A program made the position numbers and the translations under genes. A stretch of 12,124 nucleotides of DNA, taken from Clostridiales bacterium (GTDB lineage: Bacteria > Bacillota > Clostridia > Lachnospirales > Lachnospiraceae). The stretch is taken from positions 1 to 12,124 of the forward strand of contig JAJQBV010000082.1 in NCBI GenBank assembly GCA_021203115.1, in the 5' to 3' direction. A model generated the notes under the pieces. It searched no databases. It was not told the DNA's origin and worked only from the letters and a program-made list of their open reading frames with translations. Shown in pieces: positions 164-12,124 of the stretch (its first letter is position 1; each line of letters starts with the position of its first letter).

Positions 164-856
164 TCAAAAAACTTCTTGTTGTTTTTCTTCCAGATACCTG
201 ACGATGCCGTCAAGCTTCTCCTGCGCAATCTTCACAAAATCAAATCTTTCAACAAATGCGATGGCTTCCCGAATTTTTTCCTCCGGCACACGGTAGACCG
301 CCAGCGAAGTCTCCAGAAACGCCTTCACTTTCTCCTCCATCGTAAACCACATGGAACAGGGGACAATCATGAATCCACGCATAATGCCGCCGGAGGCAAT
401 CTCCAGTTTATAGAAATCCTTTGTCCCTAAACCGGGCAGGTGGTCTTTAAAAAGGGATTCCATCCTGCCGGTAACGGCCTGTTGTAAAAGGGCGGTCGGC
501 TTGGGAAGGGAGTAGGCGTTGCAGTACAGCTCGCGCAGGTTTTCATTCAGTTCCGCAATGTGAAGCTGCAAGACCGTCTCCGAGGCGTACAATAGTACAC
601 TGTCATCCGTAACGCCGTCCAGAAGCTGCCCGGTGACTGCAAACTGCCGCTCGATCACAAGCTGCACGAGGCCGCACAGGATATCCTCTTTGGAATCATA
701 CAGGTTTGTCACGGCACCGCTGCTTACATGGCACTTTTCTGCAATGCCGCGCATCGTTGTGTCTGTGTAGCCATGTTCAAGGAAATCCTTTGCCGACACA
801 TACAAAATCCTCTGTTTCAGTAATTTGCGGTGTTTTTCCCGTTTGCCTTCAGCCAT
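164..856 (-). CDS. TetR/AcrR family transcriptional regulator
   Basis: This 230-residue protein has the usual TetR length. The N-terminal DNA-binding domain (about residues 10-62) includes the helix-turn-helix around 33-53, with TMRGIAEKCHVSSGAVTNLY followed by DSKEDIL, the standard TetR hallmark. The rest is the all-helical ligand-binding and dimerisation domain, which varies between family members and does not reveal the ligand. The ATG is preceded by GGGGGAG (minus strand, plus positions 865-871) with an 8-base spacer, which supports this start. The promoter upstream carries a palindrome over the -10, so autorepression is likely. TetR regulators next to MacAB-like exporters usually repress them until a substrate binds. 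Control of the two divergent ABC operons here is an inference from proximity and shared promoter sequence. Confidence 0.92.
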   Translation of the reverse strand: MAEGKREKHRKLLKQRILYVSAKDFLEHGYTDTTMRGIAEKCHVSSGAVTNLYDSKEDILCGLVQLVIERQFAVTGQLLDGVTDDSVLLYASETVLQLHIAELNENLRELYCNAYSLPKPTALLQQAVTGRMESLFKDHLPGLGTKDFYKLEIASGGIMRGFMIVPCSMWFTMEEKVKAFLETSLAVYRVPEEKIREAIAFVERFDFVKIAQEKLDGIVRYLEEKQQEVF

Positions 857-910
857 CCCTCATTCTCCCCCGCTCCATGCGCAACATCTACAGCAAATGA
901 AGACGCAAGT

Positions 911-924
911 CAAAACGTGTTTTG
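911..924. promoter_or_regulatory. Inverted repeat in the tetR leader
   Basis: CAAAAC and GTTTTG flank a 2-base centre (GT), a perfect 6-base inverted repeat. It lies between the tetR -10 and its start codon, in the transcribed leader. It could be a secondary operator or only an AT-rich coincidence. It does not match the palindrome at 934-948. Confidence 0.3.
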
Positions 925-933
925 TTTCTTTGA

Positions 934-962
934 ATTGTAACATACAATGAACGGAATAGCAA
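934..962 (-). promoter_or_regulatory. tetR promoter with palindromic operator over the -10
   Basis: On the minus strand, -35 TTGCTA (plus 957-962) and -10 TACAAT (plus 934-939) are separated by exactly 17 bases. The -10 is embedded in the perfect palindrome ATTGTA-N3-TACAAT at 934-948. A symmetric site over the -10 is a typical position for an autorepressing TetR operator. Reading toward tetR the region runs CCGTTCA, TGTAT, TTACA, elements that also occur in this order in the divergent region at 6072-6095. Operator identity is inferred. Confidence 0.6.
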
Positions 963-986
963 TAGATGATTCGTTTTTAATAAGAA

Positions 987-1022
987 AAGACCGGAAATGC
1001 CGCAGATGACATTTCCGGTCTT
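987..1022 (-). terminator. Rho-independent terminator of the Gld-like ABC operon
   Basis: A 13-base perfect stem (arms 987-999 and 1010-1022, core GACCGGAAATG) encloses a 10-base loop. On the minus strand the stem is followed by a T-rich stretch (TTTTCTTATTAAAAA), so it terminates transcription coming from the DUF4340 gene, whose stop lies about 50 bases upstream. The tetR -35 begins only about 25 bases further on, so the hairpin insulates tetR from the operon. Confidence 0.9.
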
Positions 1023-1074
1023 GCTTACTGTATTGGGTTTGTCAGAACCAATCCTTTGGTACCCGCTCCGGTGT

Positions 1075-2622
1075 CTATTCCAGCCCCAGTACAACACTGG
1101 TCAGTTCTTCCCTCAGATCGACCATCGAACTCCTGCTTATCAGGCCGATCGTCTTGCCGTCGACTGCCACCAGACAGCTCTCACTGTCATACTGGTAGAT
1201 CGCAACCTCCACAGAGGAATACTCCTCATTCGGGAAGCGGAGTGTCAGGGACATTTCCAATGTTTCCCCGCTCTCCTCGTCGGTAAATGTGTCGATTGTC
1301 AGCGCGTCCGCCGCGGACATTACCGCGTCAAACTCCACCTTCTGGTCCGAGATCAGGTAGACATACCCGTCTTCTTCGGTGTCTTCTTCGTCGGATTCCT
1401 CGTCGGTGTCTTCCTCTGTCCCGTAGGTCTCCTCATACTCGGCCTGATCCATAACGCTGACCTCATAGGTGCTGCCGTCAACGGTGAAGGATATGCCGCT
1501 CACGGTATCCCAGTCGGCGCTGAGCACGGCGGTCGGGCGGAGATCGTCGTAGGACACAGACCGGATTGTCTCGTAGTCCGTGGTCTCCAGACGGTAGATG
1601 ATCTCGCTGTCGCCGACACGGAGGTAGGCCGTAATGGTATCCTCTTCCCCGTCTTCCTCGGCCGCTTCTGTGACGACACCGATATACAGGACAAATGCGA
1701 CATCCGCCGTCTCCAGCTCCTCGGTTTCCGCGGAGGACTCCTCCGTCTCTTCGTCCGTTGTTGCGTCAGAACTCTCTTCGTCTTCCTCTGACTCTTCTTC
1801 TGTTTCAACCTCCACTGCTCCGGTCACGGTGATCGTGTATGCCGGATCGTCAAGACCGTATATGGACAGGTCTTTCTCCGCGGAAGCGGTGTATGTCATG
1901 TAATCCGTCAGGCTGAGGGAGGACAGTGAACTGAGGTACGATTCAACCAGACTGTCGTCCAGCATCTGGTAGGTTCCGTCCTCCACCTGATAATAATTGT
2001 AGCTGTCGGTGTAGGAATAGGTTCCGTCCGGATCGTAGACGGCATCCAGCTCTGTCCTTCCGGATACGGTCATCTCTTCCAGTGTGACGATTGCCGGAAT
2101 TTCATCCTGCTGCATAAATGTATCCCGGTCCGTGGAAACGGTTTCCAGAATATCGTCCTCGACAAGGTAAACCTTTCCGTCCCCGATCTCGATATAGCGC
2201 TGCTCATCCATGATCGAGTAGTCGCCCACGGAGACGACGGTTTCCCCGTCCTCTGTGGTCAATGTAATGGTGCACTGCGGATCCTCCAGGCCGTACTGGC
2301 TGTAGTCCGTCACATCATCAATGATAAAGCAGGCATGAACCTCCTCAAACCACGACAGAAAATCAGAGATTGCATCCTGATCGACCGGGAAATCCGCGTC
2401 CTCGCTGTCGTACCAGACTTCATCCGTCTGTTCAAATGTCAGAGTCTCATCCTCATAGGTCCATGTGACATTGGTGATCGATTCCTGCTCCATGCTCAGA
2501 ATGATCTCATCGGTCGAATTGATGCTGTCCACATGTCTGGTCACCGCCTGTTCAATGCCGATCACGCAGCAAAGCGCAGCCACGACCGCAACCAAAATCA
2601 GCAGTTTCTTTTTGCGCTTCAT
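1075..2622 (-). CDS. DUF4340 domain-containing membrane-anchored protein
   Basis: This 515-residue protein has a short basic N-terminus (KRKKK), a hydrophobic anchor at about 7-23, and a long extracytoplasmic part. The motif YGLEDP (110-115) and its copy YGLDDP (255-260) mark two DUF4340-type repeats, each followed by a strand-rich segment. A third strand-rich segment fills the C-terminus. Two very acidic inserts (about 270-307 and 400-418) interrupt the domains and look like flexible linkers. Cys18-Cys19 do not sit in a convincing lipobox, so a membrane anchor is more likely than a lipoprotein. It is the last gene of the operon and overlaps the GldG-like gene by ATGA. Its Shine-Dalgarno AAGGAGG is formed by the Arg codons at the end of that upstream gene. 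DUF4340 proteins commonly accompany GldG-like ABC components, and their biochemical role is unknown. Confidence 0.85.
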   Translation of the reverse strand: MKRKKKLLILVAVVAALCCVIGIEQAVTRHVDSINSTDEIILSMEQESITNVTWTYEDETLTFEQTDEVWYDSEDADFPVDQDAISDFLSWFEEVHACFIIDDVTDYSQYGLEDPQCTITLTTEDGETVVSVGDYSIMDEQRYIEIGDGKVYLVEDDILETVSTDRDTFMQQDEIPAIVTLEEMTVSGRTELDAVYDPDGTYSYTDSYNYYQVEDGTYQMLDDSLVESYLSSLSSLSLTDYMTYTASAEKDLSIYGLDDPAYTITVTGAVEVETEEESEEDEESSDATTDEETEESSAETEELETADVAFVLYIGVVTEAAEEDGEEDTITAYLRVGDSEIIYRLETTDYETIRSVSYDDLRPTAVLSADWDTVSGISFTVDGSTYEVSVMDQAEYEETYGTEEDTDEESDEEDTEEDGYVYLISDQKVEFDAVMSAADALTIDTFTDEESGETLEMSLTLRFPNEEYSSVEVAIYQYDSESCLVAVDGKTIGLISRSSMVDLREELTSVVLGLE

Positions 2623-4076
2623 GATTTTCTCCTCCTTCTGATCACATCATCCAGTCCGTAGAGCAGATAGCAGAACGGAATCACCACGATCAGGCACACC
2701 TTGATGATATTCGCCTGATTGGTGTTGATCGTGAGATAGCTGTAGCTCAGCGACTTTGAGCGGATGGAAATGGAATCCGTCTCTCCGATCATCCATGACA
2801 CCGCGTTCATCACGAAATCCGTGTTGGCGCCGGATGAGTAGGAGACATAGGTATCATCCATGATCGTGTCTGAGCTGATCCAGACCATCGTCGCTCCGGT
2901 TCCGGTATCCTCTACCGTGACGGCGACGGAAAATGCTCCGTCAATATCCCCATCCTCTTTTTCATAGGTGGTCAGGCTGTATCCGGCAATCTTGGAGAAA
3001 GATTCGTCTGTGGTATCCAGAAGAGAGGTCACGGTCACATCGTCCGATGTGCTTCCGATGGTCAGTCCCTGCGCAATGGCTACGATAACATAGCTGTTGT
3101 TCTCCGAAAGCTCGGTTGTGATATCGGAATCGCCGAGCTCCGGCAGCAGCACATAGGGATAGCCGAACGCGTAGTTGTCGCGGCTGCCCTCAACGACGAT
3201 TCCATCCTCCGTCGTGACGCCGTAGGATTCCAGAACAGAGTGGAGATTCGTCATCTCATCCTCCTCCTGCGGCCCGGAAATGACAAACAGATGCCCGCCG
3301 TCCTCCATATATTCCATCAGCATATCCGCCTCTTCTTCGGAAATATCACTGGTCGGGGCGTAGATCAGAATAGCCGCGGCATCCTCCGGAATTTCGTCAA
3401 CTGTGAGAAGGGAAAATTCTTCCGTCTCAATATTTGCCTTCTCCAGACCGTCTGCCATACTGTCGGAAAGGTCGGCCTCGCCATGCCCGGTCAGCAGATA
3501 AATCACCGGCAGCTCCTCGCTGACCACGTAATCAATCGCTGTTGTGATCTCACTCTCCCCGTCGAAGGAATAGGAAACCGATCCGGTCGTATAATAATCA
3601 CTGTAATCCGTCACATAAATGTCGCTGTAGGCAATATAGCGGTAGCTGTCGCCGGATTCCACAACAAGGGAATTGTTCTCCACCGTCTCATCCGTGTATT
3701 GCGAGGCGAAGGTCGGGTAGATGTCAGGGTTCTTTTTCTCAACGGTGATGTTGTCGCTGAGGGCGTCATAGACATTCAGCAGCTTCTCAATCACTGTGTC
3801 CTCCTCGCCCTCCTGCGTGATCCAGTAAATGGTAACCTCGTCCGTCAGATTCTGCGCCACCGCTTTCGTGGAGGAGGTGACGGAGTAAAGCTGCGCGGCG
3901 GAAATATCGAACTGTGTCCATGTGCTCGGCAGCTTTGATACCGCCACATTGATCAGGATCAGGATCGCCAGCACGACGACTGTAATAATGAAACTGTAGC
4001 CGCCCACCTTTGCCGTCCGGGTGTTCAGCGCGTCCCGGTTTTTCTTCATGGAATGCTTCATTTTATTCTCACTCAT
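2619..4076 (-). CDS. GldG-like ABC transporter auxiliary protein
   Basis: This 485-residue protein has a basic cytoplasmic N-terminus, a membrane segment at about 27-46, a large extracytoplasmic domain, and a second membrane segment at about 457-474 followed by RRRRKS inside. Family features are the DISAAQLYSVTSST stretch just after the first membrane segment (58-70) and LLTGHGEADL (194-203), which match the GldG/ABC_transp_aux type of protein. In gliding Bacteroidetes, GldG works with GldA and GldF; elsewhere the set is common but its substrate is unknown. The domain has no visible enzyme motif. The gene overlaps the permease gene upstream and the DUF4340 gene downstream by 4 bases each (ATGA), which indicates translational coupling and probably a fixed-ratio complex. 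Confidence 0.87.
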   Translation of the reverse strand: MSENKMKHSMKKNRDALNTRTAKVGGYSFIITVVVLAILILINVAVSKLPSTWTQFDISAAQLYSVTSSTKAVAQNLTDEVTIYWITQEGEEDTVIEKLLNVYDALSDNITVEKKNPDIYPTFASQYTDETVENNSLVVESGDSYRYIAYSDIYVTDYSDYYTTGSVSYSFDGESEITTAIDYVVSEELPVIYLLTGHGEADLSDSMADGLEKANIETEEFSLLTVDEIPEDAAAILIYAPTSDISEEEADMLMEYMEDGGHLFVISGPQEEDEMTNLHSVLESYGVTTEDGIVVEGSRDNYAFGYPYVLLPELGDSDITTELSENNSYVIVAIAQGLTIGSTSDDVTVTSLLDTTDESFSKIAGYSLTTYEKEDGDIDGAFSVAVTVEDTGTGATMVWISSDTIMDDTYVSYSSGANTDFVMNAVSWMIGETDSISIRSKSLSYSYLTINTNQANIIKVCLIVVIPFCYLLYGLDDVIRRRRKS

Positions 4077-4939
4077 CCGTTATACCTCCGTTTCTCCAGA
4101 GCCTGCACGCACAAAAACAGGAAGAAGACGATTACGCTGACGAAGTATACCAGCGCCGTCAGATCAAACACGCCATTCACAAAGGTATTGAACCGGGTAA
4201 ACAGGCTGAGATTTCCCATGACATTCGGAAGAAGTCCTTCCAGAATGGTATTGTCAAACAGGTATGCGATCAGGACGGCCGCCGCGCAAACCGCCGCCGT
4301 CAGGATCCCTGCCAGATTTGATTTTGTCAGAAACCGCACGATCAGCGCCAGTGCCAGAATCAGGATCGCCAGACCGATGACGGATCCCGCCGTCGTGGAG
4401 GACACATATTCTGCCAGCGTGTCACAGTAGTAGGCAAAGAGCATCAGCACGATGCAGATGCCGACCGCCATCCCCTGAGACTCTGTCAGGCAACTGACAA
4501 ACATGCCCATACTCATCAGCGCCAGCCCCAAAAAGACGAAGGCTATGATCGTCCCGTAGGAAGTCGGCAGATAGACATCCCCGAATCTGGAAAAGATCAG
4601 CGGGTAAATGCTGACAATCGCCATCGGAATCAAAAACACGATCATCATGGAAAGGAATTTTCCGATTACGATTTCCGTCGTAGAGATCGGAAGGGAAAAC
4701 AGAAGCTGATCTGTTTTCTGGCTGCGCTCCTCCGTCATGATCCGCATGGTCAGGATCGGGACTAATATAATAAAGGTAATGGAAATAAAGCTGAGTACAT
4801 ATTCAAAATTGGCGATCGAAGCGTTGATATTGTACATCAGAGTTCCGATTCCGGTGAATACCAGCAGAAAAGCGCCGAAGACATAGGTTCGGATGCTGTG
4901 GTAATACATCGTTAATTCATGTTCAAAAATTGCTAACAT
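4073..4939 (-). CDS. ABC-2 type (GldF-like) permease
   Basis: This 288-residue integral membrane protein has about six or more hydrophobic segments (roughly 20-37, 46-67, 97-117, 130-150, 157-172, 186-203, 211-228 and 261-280). Residues 65-86, MRIMTEERSQKTDQ then LLFSLPIS, form the cytoplasmic coupling segment typical of ABC-2 permeases, whose usual form is an M-R-x-x-x-E-E run followed by LLL-LP-S. It would form the transmembrane channel driven by the ATPase encoded immediately upstream. The start codon lies inside the end of the ATPase gene (7-base overlap), with AAGGAGG about 10 bases before it. There are no fused ATPase or extracytoplasmic domains; those roles are carried by the neighbouring genes. 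Confidence 0.9.
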   Translation of the reverse strand: MLAIFEHELTMYYHSIRTYVFGAFLLVFTGIGTLMYNINASIANFEYVLSFISITFIILVPILTMRIMTEERSQKTDQLLFSLPISTTEIVIGKFLSMMIVFLIPMAIVSIYPLIFSRFGDVYLPTSYGTIIAFVFLGLALMSMGMFVSCLTESQGMAVGICIVLMLFAYYCDTLAEYVSSTTAGSVIGLAILILALALIVRFLTKSNLAGILTAAVCAAAVLIAYLFDNTILEGLLPNVMGNLSLFTRFNTFVNGVFDLTALVYFVSVIVFFLFLCVQALEKRRYNG

Positions 4940-6039
4940 TCTGCCTCGTCCTCCTTTTCTTCATATTTGGCCGGTTCTTTATCGGAATTGTCCTCCGAAG
5001 CATCTTCTTCCGGTTCGGACTCCTCCGGCTGCTCTTGGATTTCCTCCGGTTCCGGTATCTCCTCCGGCTGCTTCGTGATTTCCTCCGGATTCGCATCATC
5101 CTCCCTCTCGCTTGTGATACGGATGAAGATATCCTCCAGCGTCGCCTGCACCGGATTGAGCTTCTGCAGAACCGTACCTGCATTTGCAAAGGCAAGGAAG
5201 ATTTCACGGCAGATCAGGGCCGGGTTCTCCTCCCCGACGAACAGCATCGCGTCACAGATTTCCCCGGTTTCTTCCTGTACGGTGACGGAATTGATTCCGT
5301 CCACACCCGACAGCAGCGTCTGCATTTGATCGGAAGTGCATTCGCAGCAGATCTCAATCGTATTGCCGGAGGAGAGCGCCTTGCTTAAATTCTCCAGTCT
5401 GTCAAACGCTACCAGTTTTCCCTTGTGGATGATGAGCACATGATCGCAGATTGCCTGAATCTCCGACAGAATGTGGGAGCTCAGGATCACAGTGTGCTTT
5501 TCGCCGAGGGATTTGATCAGGTCGCGGATCTCTATGATCTGCGCGGGGTCGAGGCCGACCGTCGGCTCATCCAGAATAATGATCTCCGGATTCCCCAGCA
5601 GCGCCTGCGCGATCCCGACACGCTGGCGGTATCCTTTGGACAGGTGCCGGATCATTTTTTCGGATACATCCCCGATTCTGGTTTCCTCGATCACCTTATC
5701 CAGCTCCTGATCGATCTGCGGCTTTTTGATTCCCTTTGCGCGGGCAACAAAATACAGGTACTCTGTCACGGTCTGATCCATATAGAGAGGCGGCAGCTCC
5801 GGCAGGTAACCGATCAGGCTCTTGGCCTCCTTCGGCTGTTCAAATATATCGTACCCTCCGATTTTGACTTCCCCGGAAGTGGCGGCCAGACAACCGGTAA
5901 TGATGTTCATCGTCGTTGTCTTTCCGGCCCCGTTCGGCCCGAGAAACCCGTAAATCCCGCCGGGGGTAATCGTAAATGACAAATCGGACACAGCCAGATG
6001 GCTGCCGTACCGCTTGCTCAGATTTTTGACTTCAATCAA
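4933..6039 (-). CDS. GldA-like ABC transporter ATP-binding protein with acidic C-terminal tail
   Basis: This is the nucleotide-binding subunit of the Gld-like ABC system. Counting from a TTG start at 6039-6037 it has 368 residues. Walker A GPNGAGKT is at 34-41, the signature LSKGYRQR at 133-140, Walker B IIILDEP at 153-159 and the switch His at 189, so it should be catalytically complete. After the ATPase core comes a regulatory region (about 220-310), then a 58-residue tail rich in Glu, Pro and Asp (311-368) with repeated PEE/PEEI units, which the family does not normally carry. I chose the TTG because AAAGGAGG (6047-6054) stands 7 bases before it and the product then begins MIEVKNLSKRYG, the usual start for these ATPases. 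A start at the TTG at 6057 would place the ribosome site inside the gene. It is the first gene of the operon. Confidence 0.9.
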   Translation of the reverse strand: MIEVKNLSKRYGSHLAVSDLSFTITPGGIYGFLGPNGAGKTTTMNIITGCLAATSGEVKIGGYDIFEQPKEAKSLIGYLPELPPLYMDQTVTEYLYFVARAKGIKKPQIDQELDKVIEETRIGDVSEKMIRHLSKGYRQRVGIAQALLGNPEIIILDEPTVGLDPAQIIEIRDLIKSLGEKHTVILSSHILSEIQAICDHVLIIHKGKLVAFDRLENLSKALSSGNTIEICCECTSDQMQTLLSGVDGINSVTVQEETGEICDAMLFVGEENPALICREIFLAFANAGTVLQKLNPVQATLEDIFIRITSEREDDANPEEITKQPEEIPEPEEIQEQPEESEPEEDASEDNSDKEPAKYEEKEDEAEC

Positions 6040-6046
6040 TATGTTT

Positions 6047-6054
6047 CCTCCTTT
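6047..6054 (-). promoter_or_regulatory. Shine-Dalgarno that fixes a TTG start for the GldA-like ATPase
   Basis: AAAGGAGG on the minus strand is followed by a 7-base spacer and TTG (6039-6037). No in-frame ATG lies nearby. The upstream in-frame TTG at 6057 would translate this site itself as KGG and has no site of its own. Confidence 0.75.
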
Positions 6055-6079
6055 CAAACGCAGATGATGCGCCGTTCAA

Positions 6080-6108: not shown

Positions 6109-6165
6109 CTTTCTGTGAAAAAAAGCATGAGGACACAGAAAAAACACATTTTTTTAACGAGTCTT

Positions 6166-6189
6166 CCATATCTACCGACTAGGATATGG
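6166..6189. promoter_or_regulatory. Inverted repeat upstream of adaptor 1
   Basis: CCATATC (6166-6172) and GATATGG (6183-6189) are perfect 7-base arms around a 10-base centre. The repeat lies 36 bases before the adaptor 1 start, in the expected promoter/leader zone of the rightward operon. It differs from the palindromes at 934 and 6080, so it could be a site for another factor or a leader hairpin. Confidence 0.35.
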
Positions 6190-6206
6190 TCAATATTTGT
6201 ATCGTC

Positions 6207-6213
6207 AGGAGAG
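6207..6213 (+). promoter_or_regulatory. Shine-Dalgarno that sets the adaptor 1 start
   Basis: AGGAGAG lies 12 bases before the ATG at 6226, slightly distant but the only purine-rich site near a start. An in-frame GTG at 6115 would add 37 residues (beginning KKSMRTQKK) but has no ribosome site and overlaps the divergent control region, so it is not used here. Confidence 0.6.
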
Positions 6214-6225
6214 AAGAACGCAAAG

Positions 6226-7965
6226 ATGAACAGAAACAATGACATCCCCACAGGTGACGACTACCTTGTGGAAATGCACAGGCAGGCAAAAAAGAAAAAG
6301 AAACGAAAGGTGGTCATCACACTGGTCATTGTAATCGCGGTTATACTGGCTGCGGTGATTGCTGCGATTATCATTCTCAGGAATAAGGTGGCGAACAGTG
6401 TGAGCTCCTCTGAAAATGAGGTGCTGTCCGCGGAGGTGACGACCGGCAGCATCAGCACGACGGTTTCCGGCTCCGGTACGCTGGCCGATGAGGAGGTGGA
6501 AAGCATCGATGTCCCCTCTTCCCTTGAAATCATCGATTATTATGTGGAGGAAGGCGATGCCGTGAGCGAGGGTGATCTGATCGCCACGGTGACCAACGCC
6601 TCCCTCTCGACCGCCCTAGCCGACGCGCAGGAGGCGCTGGATGAGCTGGATGAGGAGCTGGAGGGCGCCGCGGGCGACGAGGTTTCCTCTACAATCTCTG
6701 CCAGCGTATCCGGGCGGGTGAAATATATTGCGGTATCTTCCGGCGACGATGTGGCCACTGTGATGTATGACTGCGGTTCCCTGATGCTGCTCTCACTGGA
6801 CGGATACATGGCCGTGGATGTGGAGACAGACAGCTTGAGTGCCGGTGATTCTGTCACGGTGACCGACAGCGACGGCACGGAGTACAGCGGAACCGTGGAC
6901 ACGGTCAGCGATGGCACGGCGACGATTTTGATCACAGACAACGGTCCGGCCTATGGCGATACGGTAACCGTGGCTGACGAAGCGGGAACAGAGATCGGGA
7001 GCGGCGTGCTCTATATCCACAGCTCAATGGCGATTACCGGGTACGCCGGTACGGTTTCTTCTGTCAGCGTGTCCGAGAATACAAAGGTTTCCTCCGGAAC
7101 TACGCTGCTTACCCTGACAGATACAGAGACCTCCGCCACCTATGACGCGATTTTAAAGGAACGCGAGGAGGCGGAGGAGGAGCTGGAGACTCTGATCCGT
7201 ATTTATAAGGAAGGCGGCATTTGCGCTACGGTCTCCGGAACAATCGCCTCCCTGAACAGCAGCTCCGGAACTTCCGCCTCGTCAGGCACCGCGTCCTCGA
7301 CCGATGCATCCGCCATGACGAGCGCGTCCTTGGATACAACGGGCAGCACATCCGGTTCCACGACAATCGCCGAGATTTCTCTGGATGAAAATATGCTGAT
7401 CGAGATCAGCGTGGATGAGTCCGATATCCTTTCTCTCTCCGAGGGGCAGGAGGCAGCCGTCTCCATCGATTCCATCGGCGAGGATACCTATACGGGAACC
7501 GTGACGGAAATCAGTACCACGGCCACCAGCAGCTCCGGCGTGACGACTTACTCGGCGACCGTCACGATCGCCAAGACAGAGGATATGCTCTCCGGTATGT
7601 CCGCTTCGGTCTCGATTACGATCGAAGGCGTGGAAAACGCGCTGCTGATCCCAGTGGATGCACTCCACCAGACCAGCTCCTCTTCCTATGTCTACACCGA
7701 GTACGATGAGAGCACCGGTGAGTACAGCGGAATGGTCGAGGTGACCACCGGCCTGTCCAACAGCTCCTATGTGGAGATCACGGACGGACTCTCCGAGGGA
7801 GACATCGTGTATTATACGGAATCCTCGGACGACAGTTCCGATTACAGCATGGAGTTCAATATGGACATGGGCAACATGGATATGAGTAATATGGGCACGG
7901 GAAATACATCCGGCGGCGGTGATTTCGGCGGCGGCGGTGGCGGCAGTATGCCCGGCGGGAACTAA
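6226..7965 (+). CDS. Membrane-anchored MacA/YknX-like adaptor with two tandem modules
   Basis: This 579-residue protein has a basic cytoplasmic N-terminus, one membrane segment (29-51) and a long extracytoplasmic part. A first lipoyl-like half (about 95-123, YVEEGDAVSEGDLIATV) leads to a very short helix pair (127-147), a return strand (about 157-170) and a beta-barrel-like region (185-250). The plan then repeats: GTVSSVSVSENTKVSSG (276-291), helices at 303-328, ICATVSGTI (332-340), a Ser/Thr/Gly linker and a second barrel (380-465). A final beta part (472-528) is followed by a Met-rich stretch (542-556) and a Gly-rich end. Such adaptors dock on a MacB-type permease and guide exported substrates outward. 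The short hairpins fit an organism with no outer-membrane partner. It precedes its ATPase by 18 bases. Its substrate is unknown. Confidence 0.88.
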   Translation: MNRNNDIPTGDDYLVEMHRQAKKKKKRKVVITLVIVIAVILAAVIAAIIILRNKVANSVSSSENEVLSAEVTTGSISTTVSGSGTLADEEVESIDVPSSLEIIDYYVEEGDAVSEGDLIATVTNASLSTALADAQEALDELDEELEGAAGDEVSSTISASVSGRVKYIAVSSGDDVATVMYDCGSLMLLSLDGYMAVDVETDSLSAGDSVTVTDSDGTEYSGTVDTVSDGTATILITDNGPAYGDTVTVADEAGTEIGSGVLYIHSSMAITGYAGTVSSVSVSENTKVSSGTTLLTLTDTETSATYDAILKEREEAEEELETLIRIYKEGGICATVSGTIASLNSSSGTSASSGTASSTDASAMTSASLDTTGSTSGSTTIAEISLDENMLIEISVDESDILSLSEGQEAAVSIDSIGEDTYTGTVTEISTTATSSSGVTTYSATVTIAKTEDMLSGMSASVSITIEGVENALLIPVDALHQTSSSSYVYTEYDESTGEYSGMVEVTTGLSNSSYVEITDGLSEGDIVYYTESSDDSSDYSMEFNMDMGNMDMSNMGTGNTSGGGDFGGGGGGSMPGGN

Positions 7966-7983: not shown

Positions 7984-8655
7984 ATGATCGATCTGAAGAA
8001 TATTTCAAAAATGTATCTGGTCGGAGATGAGGAGGTCCGCGCGCTTGACCATGCCGGGATGCATATTTATCCGGGTGAATTTGTATCCGTCATCGGTCCC
8101 TCCGGCAGCGGGAAGTCCACTCTGATGAATATCATCGGCTGTTTGGACACAGCGGACGCGGGCACGTACCTGTTGGACAATATTCCCATCGAGGACTATA
8201 CGGAAAATGAGCTGGCTCATATTCGCAACGAGAAGATCGGCTTTGTCTTCCAGAGTTTTAATCTGGTTCCGAAGCTGACGACGGAGGAGAATGTGGAGCT
8301 TCCTCTGATCTATCAGGGGGTGAAGCGCAGTGAGCGGTCGGAACGGGTTCGGGAGGCCATCGCCCGTGTCGGCCTGGAAAAGCGGGCAAATCACCTGCCC
8401 ACGGAGCTTTCCGGCGGCCAGCAGCAGCGCGTGGCCATTGCCCGCGCCATTGTGACAAGACCGTCGCTGATTCTGGCGGATGAACCGACCGGCAATCTGG
8501 ATTCAAAGACAAGCGAGGAAATCATGGGGATTTTTCATGAGCTGCATAAACAGGGAAATACGATCGTCCTGATCACACACGATGATGATGTGGCAAAACA
8601 GGCCTCCCGAAGCATTCACATTCTGGACGGCAGGGTATCGGAGGTGACATTATGA
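7984..8655 (+). CDS. MacB/LolD/YknY-type ABC ATP-binding protein
   Basis: This 223-residue protein is a stand-alone ATPase of normal family length. Walker [10 protein letters not shown] is at 38-46, the Q-loop Gln at 90, the signature LSGGQQQR at 142-149, Walker B LILADE at 162-167, the D-loop NLD at 171-173 and the switch His at 199. All catalytic residues are present. [18 protein letters not shown] after the Q-loop is typical of the ATPases that partner FtsX/MacB-fold permeases. AAGGAAGG (7968-7975) supports the ATG at 7984. The stop overlaps the permease start (ATGA), so the two are translationally coupled. It should power the mechanotransmission-type permease encoded next. In Bacillus the equivalent arrangement is YknX-YknY-YknZ. 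Confidence 0.95.
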
Positions 8656-9842
8656 CGCAATCTCTGAAAATGGCGTTAAAATCGCTCTCCGGAAATAAAC
8701 TGCGGGCGCTCTTAACCATGCTGGGCATTATCATCGGTGTCATGGCGCTGGTGGTTCTGGTCAGTCTGGTGAGCGGAGCGACCGGTTCCATCACGAGCGC
8801 CGTCTCAGATCTCGGGAGTGACCTTCTGACGGTCACCGTATCGGATGACAAAGGCGACCCTGTTAAGCTCGACACACTGACCGAATGGTCCGATGAGGAC
8901 GGAATCGGGAAGATTGCCCCCAGCGCCTCCGCATCGGCGACCGCAAAATACAGCTCCACCAGCGACAGTATGACCGTTTACGGCACAACCCCATCCTATT
9001 ACAATGTGGAAGAGCTGAATCTGCTTCTGGGGCGGTTTCTCATGACGACAGATGTGGACAATAACAATTATGTCTGCGTGATCAATGAGACGACGGCGAC
9101 GGATCTGGTCGGCTATCTGGACTGCGTGGGGGAAGAAATCTCCATTGACGGCATGAAGTTTACCATCATCGGCGTGCTGGAGGACAATGACAGCTCTCTG
9201 ACAGCGGCATTCAGTTCCGGCTCCATGGTGGCCTACATACCGTATACAACGCTTTTGCGCCTGTCCTCCTCTGTGAGCACCGACATTACGGAATTCTATG
9301 TCAGTGCGGAGGAAGACAGCGATACCACCGCGGCGGAGACCGCCATCACAGCTCTTTTGATGGAACGGTTTGATGACGATGAAGATGCTTTTGGGGTATC
9401 CAGTCAGAACGTGTTGGAGGACACCGTCAGCAGCATCACCTCGATATTGACGGCTCTGCTGGGCGGCATCGCCGCCATTTCCCTGCTGGTCGGCGGCATC
9501 GGCATTATGAACATCATGCTGGTGACGGTCACCGAGCGAACCCGCGAGATCGGCATCCGGAAAGCCATCGGCGCCACCCGCGGCGTGATTCTGCGGCAGT
9601 TTCTCATTGAGGCCGTGGTAATCTGTATGATCGGCTGCTCAATCGGGATTTTCCTGTCATGGATCATCCTGCAGCTGGTTTCCGTTGTGACCGCGAGCAT
9701 GGGGCTGAGCTTTGTCATGAATGGAATGGTCGTCCTGATCGCCATTGTTTTCTGTTTCCTTATCGGCGTGGTCTTCGGGCTCTATCCTGGCAATAAAGCG
9801 GCAAAAATGAAACCGATCGACGCACTCCACTATGGCGGTTGA
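8652..9842 (+). CDS. MacB/YknZ-type ABC permease (FtsX fold)
   Basis: This 396-residue protein shows the standard MacB plan. It has an N-terminal amphipathic region and first membrane segment (about 21-42), a large extracytoplasmic domain (about 45-260), then three membrane segments (about 265-292, 318-345 and 357-378). The cytoplasmic loop TERTREIGIRKAIGATR (294-310) after the second segment is the hallmark of the family, and the C-terminal KPIDALHYGG is also typical. MacB-type permeases transmit ATPase motion to the extracytoplasmic side to expel peptides, lipids or drugs rather than forming a classic channel. The start overlaps the ATPase stop by 4 bases. The end is 15 bases before the second adaptor, so all four rightward genes should be one transcript. 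Confidence 0.95.
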   Translation: MTQSLKMALKSLSGNKLRALLTMLGIIIGVMALVVLVSLVSGATGSITSAVSDLGSDLLTVTVSDDKGDPVKLDTLTEWSDEDGIGKIAPSASASATAKYSSTSDSMTVYGTTPSYYNVEELNLLLGRFLMTTDVDNNNYVCVINETTATDLVGYLDCVGEEISIDGMKFTIIGVLEDNDSSLTAAFSSGSMVAYIPYTTLLRLSSSVSTDITEFYVSAEEDSDTTAAETAITALLMERFDDDEDAFGVSSQNVLEDTVSSITSILTALLGGIAAISLLVGGIGIMNIMLVTVTERTREIGIRKAIGATRGVILRQFLIEAVVICMIGCSIGIFLSWIILQLVSVVTASMGLSFVMNGMVVLIAIVFCFLIGVVFGLYPGNKAAKMKPIDALHYGG

Positions 9843-9857
9843 TCAAAGGAGGTCGCG

Positions 9858-12124
9858 ATGAAAGAAAAAATAAAAACTTTATTCGGAAAAATTTTACAGG
9901 CGCCGGTTTTTCACAGGAAGCCCCTGTATCTGGTGCTCACGATCATCCTCTCCCTCCTTTTGCTGGCAGATGCGGCGATGGCTGTCCTGATTCCGGATAC
10001 CGCCGGCATGGGCGATATGCAAAGCATGCAGAATATGCAGGATATGTTGATGGCGGATGATGACGGCAGCGCAGACAGTGAAAGCGCGGACGCCGACACG
10101 GGGGTCAGACAGAACGACGATGAGATGCCGGATATGCCCGATGCCGAAAACGGTGAGATGCCCGACATGTCTTCCTCCGGGGATGGACACATGCCCGGAA
10201 GGGGAGGCGAAGCCCCCTCTTCTGACGGTGAAAGTCCGGACGGCAGCTCGGAGGATGTCTCAGACAGCACCGCAGATGAAAGTGAAGATTCCGATACGGA
10301 TACGGAGGAGGACGATATCGACAGCGGCATGACCTTTGACGGCGGGGATTTCGCGGATGTGCAGAACAATCGCTTTTCGGCATTCAGCAGACTACAGAGC
10401 ATCCGCTCCCACTGGCTGCTCATCCTGATCATTCTGGCGATTCTGGATGCGGGAAGCATTTTCATGCTGATTCGTATTTCGCGCCGCCAGAAGAAACAGC
10501 GGTTGGAGGAAGAAAAAGCGCGGCGGGAGCTGGCCGCATCCGGAGAGATTATCCATACGGCGCGCTCAGTCAAAAAGGAGAGCAAGCATTCCCATTACCT
10601 GTGGATCATCGCAGTGATCGTGATCGTTGCTCTGGTAATCCTTGTAAAGGTCTTCACCCGGCAGACCTCCGCCTCCGGCACGGAGACAGAGGCTACTACA
10701 TACACAGAAACCGTTGAAACCGGCAGTATCGATACGGTGCTTCCGGGCACCGGCACTCTGGAGGAGGAGGAAGCGGAGGAGTTTTCCCTTCCGGATGAGG
10801 TGGAAATCACGAAGTGGTATGTGTCTGACGGAGATACCGTGGAGGAGGGCGATACGCTGGCTGCGGTTGATCCGGTCTCCGTTATGACAGCAATCGCTAC
10901 CGTGCAGGAAAACATCTCTTCCGTAGATGACGCACTGGAGGATTGTGAAGACGATACGGATTCAGAAACCATTACGGCTGCTTCGGCCGGAAGAGTCATT
11001 AAGATTTATGCCGCCGAAGACACTGATGCGGCGGATACCATGTATGAAAACGGGGCATTGATGCTGCTTTCTCTTGACGGATATATGGCTGTCTCTGTCG
11101 AGACGGATGCGGAAATCTCCACCGGAGATACCGTTGATGTGACATTATCCGACGGCACGGTCGTCACCGGAAAAGTGGAGAGTCTGGTCAACCGGACGGC
11201 TGTCATCATTCTGTCAGATAACGGGCCGGAGCCGGGCGACACCGTGACCGTCACCACAGAGGACGGCGATACCGTGAGCGAGGGAACGCTGTACATTCAC
11301 AGCGAGCTGAAGGTGACAGGGTACACCGGCACCGTATCGTCCATCTCCGTCTCAGAGGGAAGCAAGGTCAGCAGCGGCGCCACCCTGCTCACGCTGACCG
11401 ACACGGATACCTCCGCAGAGTATGAGGCCTTGCTGGAACAGCGGTCCGAACTGGAATCCCAGATTGCGACGCTTTTCAAACTGTATGAGGACGGATATAT
11501 TTACGCATCCTGCTCCGGCGTGATTTCCGTGCAGGCTGACACCGCTGCATCGGAGGACAGCACGGCTTCCGATTCGGATGCCGACAATGATTCTTCTGAT
11601 GACAGCGCTTCGGATACCGGATCGACAGACGCCGCATCCGGGACATCATCGTCCGGCTCTGCGGGATATACGGTGAATACCCTGTCGTATACGAAAAGCT
11701 CCGCTGCGTGTCTGACCGTCTGCACGGATCAGGGCGCACAGGCTGTTCTGACATCTGAGACGGGAAACAGTACAGTCAGCAATGACAACAGTAATATTGA
11801 GACCGGCGATGATACAGTCAGCAGTGACGGCGATGCCTCTGAGACCGGCGATGATACAACCGACAGTGACAACAGAACAACAGATACCGGCACAACAACC
11901 GTGCAGATTGGCGTGATCCAGTCTGTATCGGAGGAAGCGGTGACCGTATCTCTCCTGTCCGGCGGGAGCAGCACCGTGACGCTTTCCACTGTCGGTGTTT
12001 ACAAAAACGGAACCTATAATGCCTCCGGTACGGTCAGCGATATCGCGGTCGGCGATGTCCTGATCCTCACCTGCACGGGCGGGACCGTATCCTCCGCCAC
12101 CGGTATTCCGAGGTCCGACACTGG
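9858..12124 (+). CDS. Second MacA/YknX-like adaptor with an N-terminal two-pass membrane domain (partial, runs off right edge)
   Basis: At least 755 codons are open to the window end with no stop. AAGGAGG (9846-9852) lies 5 bases before the ATG, a strong start. The product has a membrane segment (23-45), an outside loop (46-183) rich in Met, Asp, Pro, Ser and Glu, a second segment (186-205), a basic helical inside segment (206-246), a third segment (248-266), and then an adaptor region. The adaptor part is a clear paralog of adaptor 1: LMLLSLDGYMAV (401-412) is identical to residues 186-197 there, and residues about 400-557 align along their length. A Ser/Asp/Thr-rich stretch with 14-residue repeats (634-675) follows, then a small beta domain (682-750) resembling DUF5666-type barrels. 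The charge pattern supports inside-out-inside-out topology. It probably joins the same exporter, perhaps as a scaffold or alternative adaptor. Confidence 0.87.
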   Translation, partial: MKEKIKTLFGKILQAPVFHRKPLYLVLTIILSLLLLADAAMAVLIPDTAGMGDMQSMQNMQDMLMADDDGSADSESADADTGVRQNDDEMPDMPDAENGEMPDMSSSGDGHMPGRGGEAPSSDGESPDGSSEDVSDSTADESEDSDTDTEEDDIDSGMTFDGGDFADVQNNRFSAFSRLQSIRSHWLLILIILAILDAGSIFMLIRISRRQKKQRLEEEKARRELAASGEIIHTARSVKKESKHSHYLWIIAVIVIVALVILVKVFTRQTSASGTETEATTYTETVETGSIDTVLPGTGTLEEEEAEEFSLPDEVEITKWYVSDGDTVEEGDTLAAVDPVSVMTAIATVQENISSVDDALEDCEDDTDSETITAASAGRVIKIYAAEDTDAADTMYENGALMLLSLDGYMAVSVETDAEISTGDTVDVTLSDGTVVTGKVESLVNRTAVIILSDNGPEPGDTVTVTTEDGDTVSEGTLYIHSELKVTGYTGTVSSISVSEGSKVSSGATLLTLTDTDTSAEYEALLEQRSELESQIATLFKLYEDGYIYASCSGVISVQADTAASEDSTASDSDADNDSSDDSASDTGSTDAASGTSSSGSAGYTVNTLSYTKSSAACLTVCTDQGAQAVLTSETGNSTVSNDNSNIETGDDTVSSDGDASETGDDTTDSDNRTTDTGTTTVQIGVIQSVSEEAVTVSLLSGGSSTVTLSTVGVYKNGTYNASGTVSDIAVGDVLILTCTGGTVSSATGIPRSDT
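11757..11882 (+). repeat. Three 42-base tandem repeats encoding a 14-residue ETGxxT unit
   Basis: Inside adaptor 2, residues 634-675 form three units beginning ETGNSTVS, ETGDDTVS and ETGDDTTD, each 14 residues long, followed by a partial DTGTTT. At DNA level, 19 identical bases recur at 11798-11816 and 11840-11858, exactly 42 bases apart, so the last duplication is recent. The period keeps the reading frame, so copy number could vary and change linker length without breaking the protein. Confidence 0.85.

Follow-up and report, generated by a model that had tools for sequence, protein, structure and literature searches.

An additional membrane hairpin on the second adaptor of a dual-adaptor MacB-type exporter operon from Clostridiales

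The window studied here, 12124 bases that make up the entire contig G000:C221 of a Clostridiales genome (fragmented into 242 contigs, 79.75% complete), carries in its right half a plus-strand operon encoding adaptor 1, an ATP-binding cassette (ABC) ATPase, a MacB-type permease and adaptor 2. Adaptor 2, a MacA/YknX-like protein, bears an N-terminal module of about 230 residues that sets two transmembrane (TM) helices, an acidic loop and a cytoplasmic helix ahead of the usual anchor. The same layout recurs among gut Clostridia, in the same operon context, in loci of two bacterial families of the class, and homology with adaptor 1 places the fusion boundary near residue 231. By analogy with YknW, the separate membrane protein of the Bacillus YknWXYZ pump, we suggest that the module may be an assembly and coupling element acting in cis, working like YknW without being a member of its Yip1 family; we put the probability of this reading at roughly 0.4.

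Membrane architecture of adaptor 2

The adaptor 2 gene (9858..12122, plus strand, as are all operon features given below) comprises 755 codons and is open to the contig end; complete relatives are 788-1177 amino acids long. Hydropathy peaks at residues 27-45 (Kyte-Doolittle 2.55), 187-205 (2.81) and 248-266 (3.19) agree with the segments 23-45, 186-205 and 248-266 proposed in the initial annotation, and the extra membrane segments are real. A basic N-terminal tail (residues 1-26, net +5; 9858..9935) leads into TM1 (27-45; 9936..9992) with a buried Asp38 (codon 9969-9971), and an acidic, Met-containing and largely disordered loop (46-186; 9993..10415) joins it to TM2 (187-205; 10416..10472) with a buried Asp197 (codon 10446-10448). 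A basic linker of 42 residues (206-247; 10473..10598; 13 Lys/Arg, net +7), predicted to be helical to residue 227, then connects to TM3 (248-266; 10599..10655), the ancestral adaptor anchor by hydropathy and by BLAST against adaptor 1. Charges of +5, -35 and +7 would fit a topology with the tail inside, the loop outside, the linker inside and the adaptor outside, the extracellular side of the loop being assigned from charge.

The AlphaFold2 model (15 sequences) has helices at 2-14, within the tail, and at 21-44, 52-66, 165-227 and 244-274, the long helix 165-227 extending from TM2 into the cytoplasm. Its overall confidence is low (predicted local distance difference test, pLDDT, 57.7; predicted template modelling score, pTM, 0.26), with pLDDT <50 through most of the loop. 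The adaptor core (10683..11507) consists of lipoyl halves and an inserted beta domain, as judged from Pfam Biotin_lipoyl and from the adaptor fold of a complete relative, P0002. The lipoyl/barrel-sandwich domain is present in the window protein (Biotin_lipoyl 1.4e-9, HlyD_3 6.6e-5, both above cut-off), and the beta-barrel/membrane-proximal C-terminal part lies past the contig end; in P0002 this part has HlyD_3 at 818-889 and is modelled as beta-rich over 818-977. The P0002 model (pLDDT 55.7) shows the same three helices, then adaptor helices 361-384 and 542-567 separated by beta strands, and an additional beta domain at 670-740 flanked by disordered stretches. Its top Foldseek match in the PDB (E 1.2e-7) is a MacAB-TolC complex chain, 9qgy_G, presumably MacA, followed by TMexCD1-TOprJ1, ZneB, BesA, CusB and, at 1.9e-5, MacA 4dk0; these matches are local, covering about 160 columns. 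Whereas adaptors of the MacA/YknX type have a single anchor, the window protein and its module-bearing relatives have three membrane helices.

Given that the contig belongs to a fragmented assembly, the module could be an artefact, with the true gene start near residue 245 or with the extra segment arising from an assembly join. However, a strong Shine-Dalgarno sequence, AGGAGG (9847..9852), lies 5 nt before the first ATG at 9858. An internal start near residue 245, raised in the initial annotation as a possible flaw, is rejected, because none of the four in-frame alternatives between residues 170 and 290 (ATG203, TTG216, GTG253 and GTG255) has a clear Shine-Dalgarno by reading and no good alternative start lies nearby. 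The three-TM layout recurs in independent genomes, including on the 428-kb contig G265:C3; the 29 sequences measured for layout were all chosen as module-bearing, and 29/29 is therefore no independent rate. The ratio of nonsynonymous to synonymous rates (dN/dS, NG86) does not exceed 0.454 in any module segment that allowed its calculation (10 pairs), which places the module under purifying selection. An artefact has next to no chance of being the explanation, and it is ruled out by the relatives.

Buried aspartates in the added helices

Counts of charge and of buried Asp were made on the window, 15 other loci and 13 of the 25 P proteins, all chosen as module-bearing. P0001 (the window's own copy), P0008 and P0014 (no TM1 in the record) and P0011 were left out, as were the copies or near-copies P0003, P0004, P0009, P0012, P0013, P0015, P0019 and P0022; P0005, a near-copy, was omitted from the Asp count only. 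Among the resulting 28 distinct proteins, an Asp within the central 15 residues of the helix, our definition of buried, is found in TM1 of 22, in TM2 of 26 and in TM3 of none (0/28), and it is likewise missing from the anchors of adaptor 1s and single adaptors (0/36). When the proteins are grouped at 60% identity, it is present in 8/10 clusters for each of TM1 and TM2. The background frequency of a central acidic residue is 30/359 for TM segments of other open frames at the same loci and 0/68 in frames with one or two helices; the Asp and background rows include near relatives and are not independent trials.

Members of two families share a TM2 consensus of roughly W(L/I)PI..V..LL.DA..IFMLIRIS. 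Per site, the loop shows more amino-acid-changing differences than the TM2 region in 10/10 pairs, and dN/dS is 0.05-0.37 for the TM2 region, 0.18-0.32 for the loop (where computable) and 0.04-0.14 for the adaptor core, which is generally more constrained than either.

Origin and distribution of the module

In a BLAST comparison the two window adaptors are 47% identical over 329 residues; the alignment starts at adaptor-2 residue 231 (10548) and pairs the basic tail and anchor of adaptor 1 with the linker end and TM3 of adaptor 2. At this identity the operon holds two different adaptors, as do dual-adaptor pumps such as TriABC; and because the homology starts only at residue 231, about 230 residues are an addition to adaptor 2. 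The claim of the initial annotation that an extra two-pass domain is fused to an adaptor is borne out by this boundary, by four related dual-adaptor operons that lack the module and by the fact that no Pfam or NCBIfam model matches the module above cut-off.

In a permease tree of 36 rows, 23 dual-adaptor operons form one branch (support 100/100); L043, labelled 'none' since its contig ends, counts as dual because its adaptor 2 lies on another contig, L042. The adaptor-core tree retains 57 of 60 rows after removal of three of <=150 residues, including the G148 adaptor 2, and in it the 5'-cut adaptor 2s of G004, G012 and G342 and the gapped one of G013:C149 are labelled three-TM by kinship; here a single branch (97/95) unites the adaptor 1s of dual operons. 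Together, these patterns would fit one duplication event after which the module was gained, with some losses or a few gains.

A profile of module plus anchor matches 12/20 genus genomes at E 1e-4 or better and 2/391 class-drawn genomes (the window's own and G717), while the adaptor-core profile matches 18/397 family-drawn genomes, 17 of which were inspected (G070 left out). Five of the 17 have a module-bearing adaptor 2 (the window's own, G149, G193, G265 and G342, split between contigs in the last), G148 has a one-helix adaptor 2, the G074 contig ends at the permease, and in ten there is no second adaptor within the stretch fetched. In family f45, the adaptor 2 of G717:C60 has three helices and those of G717:C39, G568 and G610 have one. 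The class search matched 13 genomes, of which the window's own, G717, G568, G610, G558 and G485 were inspected and G417, G433, G534, G557, G650, G660 and G742 left out. The profile A2 search, with 15/26 match rows examined (L052, L053, L057, L058, L059, L065-L069 and L072 left out), gives lower bounds, because it missed G193 and G265. A scan of named genomes with two peptide patterns from this genus found 14 loci, all in metagenome genomes labelled Clostridiales or Lachnospiraceae.

The sister operons without the module imply that it is an added refinement and not a general need. Together with the low-complexity loop and a 33-bp tandem repeat in G010, they are also what one would expect of a two-pass segment fused by chance and providing membrane attachment and a spacer only. 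We consider so inert a segment unlikely, since both helices carry a buried Asp above background, purifying selection extends over the module, and the module is present in two families of the class.

Composition of the loop and searches for related modules

Residues 46-185 of adaptor 2 include 29 Asp, 11 Glu and 12 Met (net -35) out of a whole loop of 141 residues, and the QNM-type units are built on a 9-bp repeat present in 3.6 copies (10015-10046). The Met/Asp-rich loop with repeats that the initial annotation had described is thus present in the window, but it is not a general trait of the module. Across relatives the loop is 77-233 amino acids long, Met ranges over 0-11.7%, and Phe and Pro climb to about 12% in the distant forms, which carry Phe/Pro/Asp loops with as little as 0% Met (P0018). 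Because composition varies this widely, with Met down to 0%, the Met/Asp repeats are a local style of this genus. In the G010 loop the 33-bp repeat, in four copies (L036:10416-10546), codes for GEMPDMSSMGD units, and the loop can therefore grow by repeat expansion. In the G006 adaptor 2 (L034:9066-12041) the loop is rich in Trp and Asp, and visual inspection suggests an insert resembling a coiled coil in the adaptor part.

The Met content might point to a metal-binding domain in the manner of copper/silver Mets motifs, as MxxM occurs six times in the window loop and Met amounts to 5.7% of loop residues (29 sequences), compared with 1.7% in a second low-complexity insert that these proteins carry, no such insert having been located in the window, G011 or P0025. 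However, MxxM is missing from 13/29 loops, Met is at 0-2% in P0016, P0017, P0018 and P0020, and no Cys and at most two His are found in any of the 29 loops. The Met motif as a metal site is therefore rejected as the general function, and such a role is highly improbable.

The principal rival to assembly and coupling is that the acidic loop binds a cationic substrate at the cell surface, for example an antimicrobial peptide, and then either passes it to the pump or signals its presence through TM1 and TM2 to the cytoplasmic helix. The loop is net negative in 28/29 sequences, response regulator and histidine kinase genes adjoin the operon in 5/25 loci (L145, L102, L103, L133 and L136; many flanks are short), and the module-less G610 operon has a lipoprotein with PDMDFNPEDADG repeats directly upstream. 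We nevertheless find this rival doubtful: loop sequence, length and motifs vary, the net charge of 11 Phe/Pro-richer distant loops is just -2 to -16 with P0020 at +2, two-component genes are not seen in the window (where the right flank is cut off), and the recurrent features sit in the membrane helices.

Two further observations concern loops of this kind. Directly upstream of a dual-adaptor operon with a module-less adaptor 2, L136:1425-2075 encodes a lipoprotein with tandem PDMDFNPEDADGSRPSR repeats that are similar in flavour to the loops of P0023 and G193; and the histidine kinase sensor loops in L102, L133 and L136 look, by eye, rich in Met, Phe, Pro and Asp.

With the window module and the G717 module as queries, database searches returned 14 and 11 proteins, respectively, all of adaptor length; the searches were limited to 0.55-1.75 of whole-adaptor length and could not show stand-alone copies, because these limits exclude short proteins. 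A stand-alone module was not found by a module profile search of open reading frames of >=60 amino acids in the collected loci, where the best matches below the adaptor-2 frames and fragments were chance-like (E 1.5e-6 and weaker, for example a histidine kinase frame in L076), nor by an A2-alignment database search among 7,995 candidates scored, in which true candidates may have been displaced by acidic low-complexity words. The family and stand-alone search of residues 1-246 proposed in the initial annotation has thus yielded no known domain above cut-off, and no free copy among the candidates scored. Weak single-member Pfam and NCBIfam matches (EbpS, ETRAMP, FILTED and others) were scattered and common to at most 5/15 module sequences, and were discarded; a DUF4349 gene beside G717:C39 (E 0.015) was likewise set aside. 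Foldseek of the module model, a poor one, gave no PDB match at E 10 or better. The terminal TM segment LFAVLDLLSIFKLTRI of a membrane protein that by eye is glycoside hydrolase-like (G129, L077:5529-8597) resembles module TM2 at E 0.0081, which may be chance. For Yip1 (PF04893) there was no match in residues 1-266 or among the families listed for 15 module sequences, and 0/20 genus genomes were above cut-off with the B. subtilis control positive; a single sub-cut-off match was seen in G004 (E 9.8e-6). The relatives returned by the database searches with the two modules carry the newer Pfam models PF25984, PF25989 and PF25990, which are of YknX type.

A proposed role in assembly and coupling

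A pneumococcal MacB-type pump requires the anchor and the cytoplasmic part of its adaptor for stimulation of the ATPase (PMC5985334), adaptor membrane and cytoplasmic parts are needed for assembly (PMC8277102), and the EmrA anchor is reported to bind EmrB helices (PMC13328181). On our proposal, an ancestral MacA/YknX-like adaptor gene would have duplicated, and the copy downstream of the permease would have gained the N-terminal module of ~230 residues (basic tail, TM1, acidic loop, TM2 and cytoplasmic helix), its old anchor becoming TM3. The added helices could pack via their buried Asp against the permease, the anchor of the other adaptor or each other, and the hairpin and cytoplasmic helix might both keep adaptor 2 in register and relay conformational change between the ATPase/permease and the adaptor ring. 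The module would then fill in cis, for adaptor 2, the job ascribed to the separate YknW in Bacillus YknWXYZ, with the loop as a variable, charged outer spacer. Of the two roles that the initial annotation had suggested, assembly or sensing, we infer assembly together with coupling, because membrane helices with buried Asp recur while the loop varies widely.

A number of points weigh against this proposal. A 2026 review regards MacA as mainly a passive scaffold (PMC13328181). The TM1 Asp is missing in G006 and in the five-member G717 cluster, and the TM2 Asp in G265 and in P0021, which has Asn. The dN/dS ranges of loop and helices overlap, and P0014 (898 amino acids, on a 46-kb contig) is predicted to start within the loop, without TM1, a start that may be miscalled. 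The dual-adaptor operons of G148, G568, G610 and G717:C39 persist with a one-anchor adaptor 2, no evident replacement gene for the module was found among the inspected neighbours of these four operons, and no permease membrane residue was found to be present in module-bearing operons yet absent from the four module-less ones. In the adaptor-core tree, adaptor 2s group weakly (81/26), with many long branches.

More tentatively, the protein may represent a class of adaptor that we did not find described in the literature searched: a duplicated MacA/YknX adaptor with its own hairpin bearing conserved buried Asp and a cytoplasmic helix, which would unite an adaptor with a YknW-like fourth component and, alongside a plain partner adaptor, link ATPase, membrane and adaptor ring in an asymmetric way. 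A three-helix adaptor did not turn up in that literature, which is weak evidence, coverage of subscription papers being thin. The fusion and its module-less sister operons offer a ready comparison: within one protein, the element is open to deletion, exchange or mutation of two buried residues.

Operon organization and neighbouring genes

Adaptor 1 (6115..7965), MacA/YknX-like with one anchor, has Pfam HlyD_3 and Biotin_lipoyl and one TM segment; judged from the translation, its true start is probably internal, for example at an ATG near 6226. The ABC ATPase gene (7984..8655), of MacB/LolD type (Pfam ABC_tran 1.1e-33; the best NCBIfam match, the MacB model, is under its cut-off), overlaps by 4 nt with the permease gene (8652..9842; Pfam MacB_PCD and FtsX; best PDB sequence match MacB 5lil, E 3.5e-60). 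MacB is the nearest type of ATPase plus permease in Pfam, NCBIfam and PDB sequence searches, and both adaptors fall among the lipoyl/HlyD-type adaptors in Pfam and NCBIfam. With a MacB_PCD and FtsX permease, a LolD/MacB-type ATPase and an adjoining adaptor, the operon has the make-up of a MacB-type ABC exporter, and by its encoded families it is a four-gene, dual-adaptor one.

The order adaptor 1 - ABC - permease - adaptor 2 is seen in 17/17 loci with a module-bearing adaptor 2 and its upstream genes on one contig. Some of these rows are imperfect: in L044 the contig end truncates adaptor 1, in L039 adaptor 1 runs up to the contig end and the ABC frame is interrupted, and the L031 adaptor 2 contains an N-gap. 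In L039 (G005:C371) the ATPase is split into two open frames in an otherwise intact operon, through sequencing error or decay. G013 has two dual-adaptor operons, L032 (G013:C135) and L031 (G013:C149), one with two-component genes alongside (L145) and the other with an ABC/GldG/DUF4340 set (L141). In the window such a set lies in divergent genes (164-6057) for an ABC ATPase, an ABC-2 permease, a GldG-like protein (ABC_transp_aux), DUF4340 and a TetR regulator. It adjoins the pump in L139, L141 and L045 too, and in L103, which comes from a different genus (G193), the DUF4340 and GldG genes are found just past the two-component genes.

Permeases of dual-adaptor operons share C325, C368 and W79 (19/19 module-bearing, 4/4 module-less) and E256 (18/19 and 4/4); all 13 single-adaptor permeases have Ser in place of both C325 and C368, one of them has Trp at position 79, and none has Glu at position 256. 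Hydropathy places C325 and C368 in the last two membrane helices.

Comparison with known systems

The adaptor fold, lipoyl domains, MacB permease and ATPase are shared with MacA-MacB-TolC and pneumococcal Spr0693-0695 (PMC5768738, PMC5985334). Those systems have one adaptor with one anchor, whereas here there are two adaptors, the second with three membrane helices, and the P0002 model has beta strands between its hairpin helices as well as long disordered inserts. Two distinct adaptor genes per pump operon are known from TriABC-OpmH of Pseudomonas (PMC4338810, PMC8277102); that, however, is a resistance-nodulation-division (RND) pump of a two-membrane cell, and the available text mentions no fused membrane module. 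AS-48E/Mr10E of the MacB-like enterocin immunity pumps are, like the module, accessory membrane elements of a Gram-positive MacB-like pump, with a role described as unknown (PMC5985334, PMC10598978), but they are encoded by a separate gene, have four helices and are not fused to an adaptor. The window protein bears on how Gram-positive MacB-type pumps use adaptors in the absence of an outer membrane, and on the role of helpers such as YknW and AS-48E/Mr10E.

YknW is a four-helix Yip1-type protein that affects YknX oligomerisation or the contact of YknX with YknYZ (PMC4338810); it is critical for assembly (PMC8277102), and the role of the extra membrane helper has been called enigmatic (PMC5985334). 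YknWXYZ has one adaptor and a separate four-helix YknW; here there are two adaptors, and the extra element is fused to the second, has two helices and a large acidic loop, does not match Yip1 and was found only fused in the searches made. The parallel with YknW, already drawn in the initial annotation, hence fails as family membership and holds as an analogy: as in Bacillus (PMC4887032, PMC8277102, PMC4338810), a MacB-type ABC protein and permease are combined in one operon with a MacA-like adaptor and an additional membrane element.

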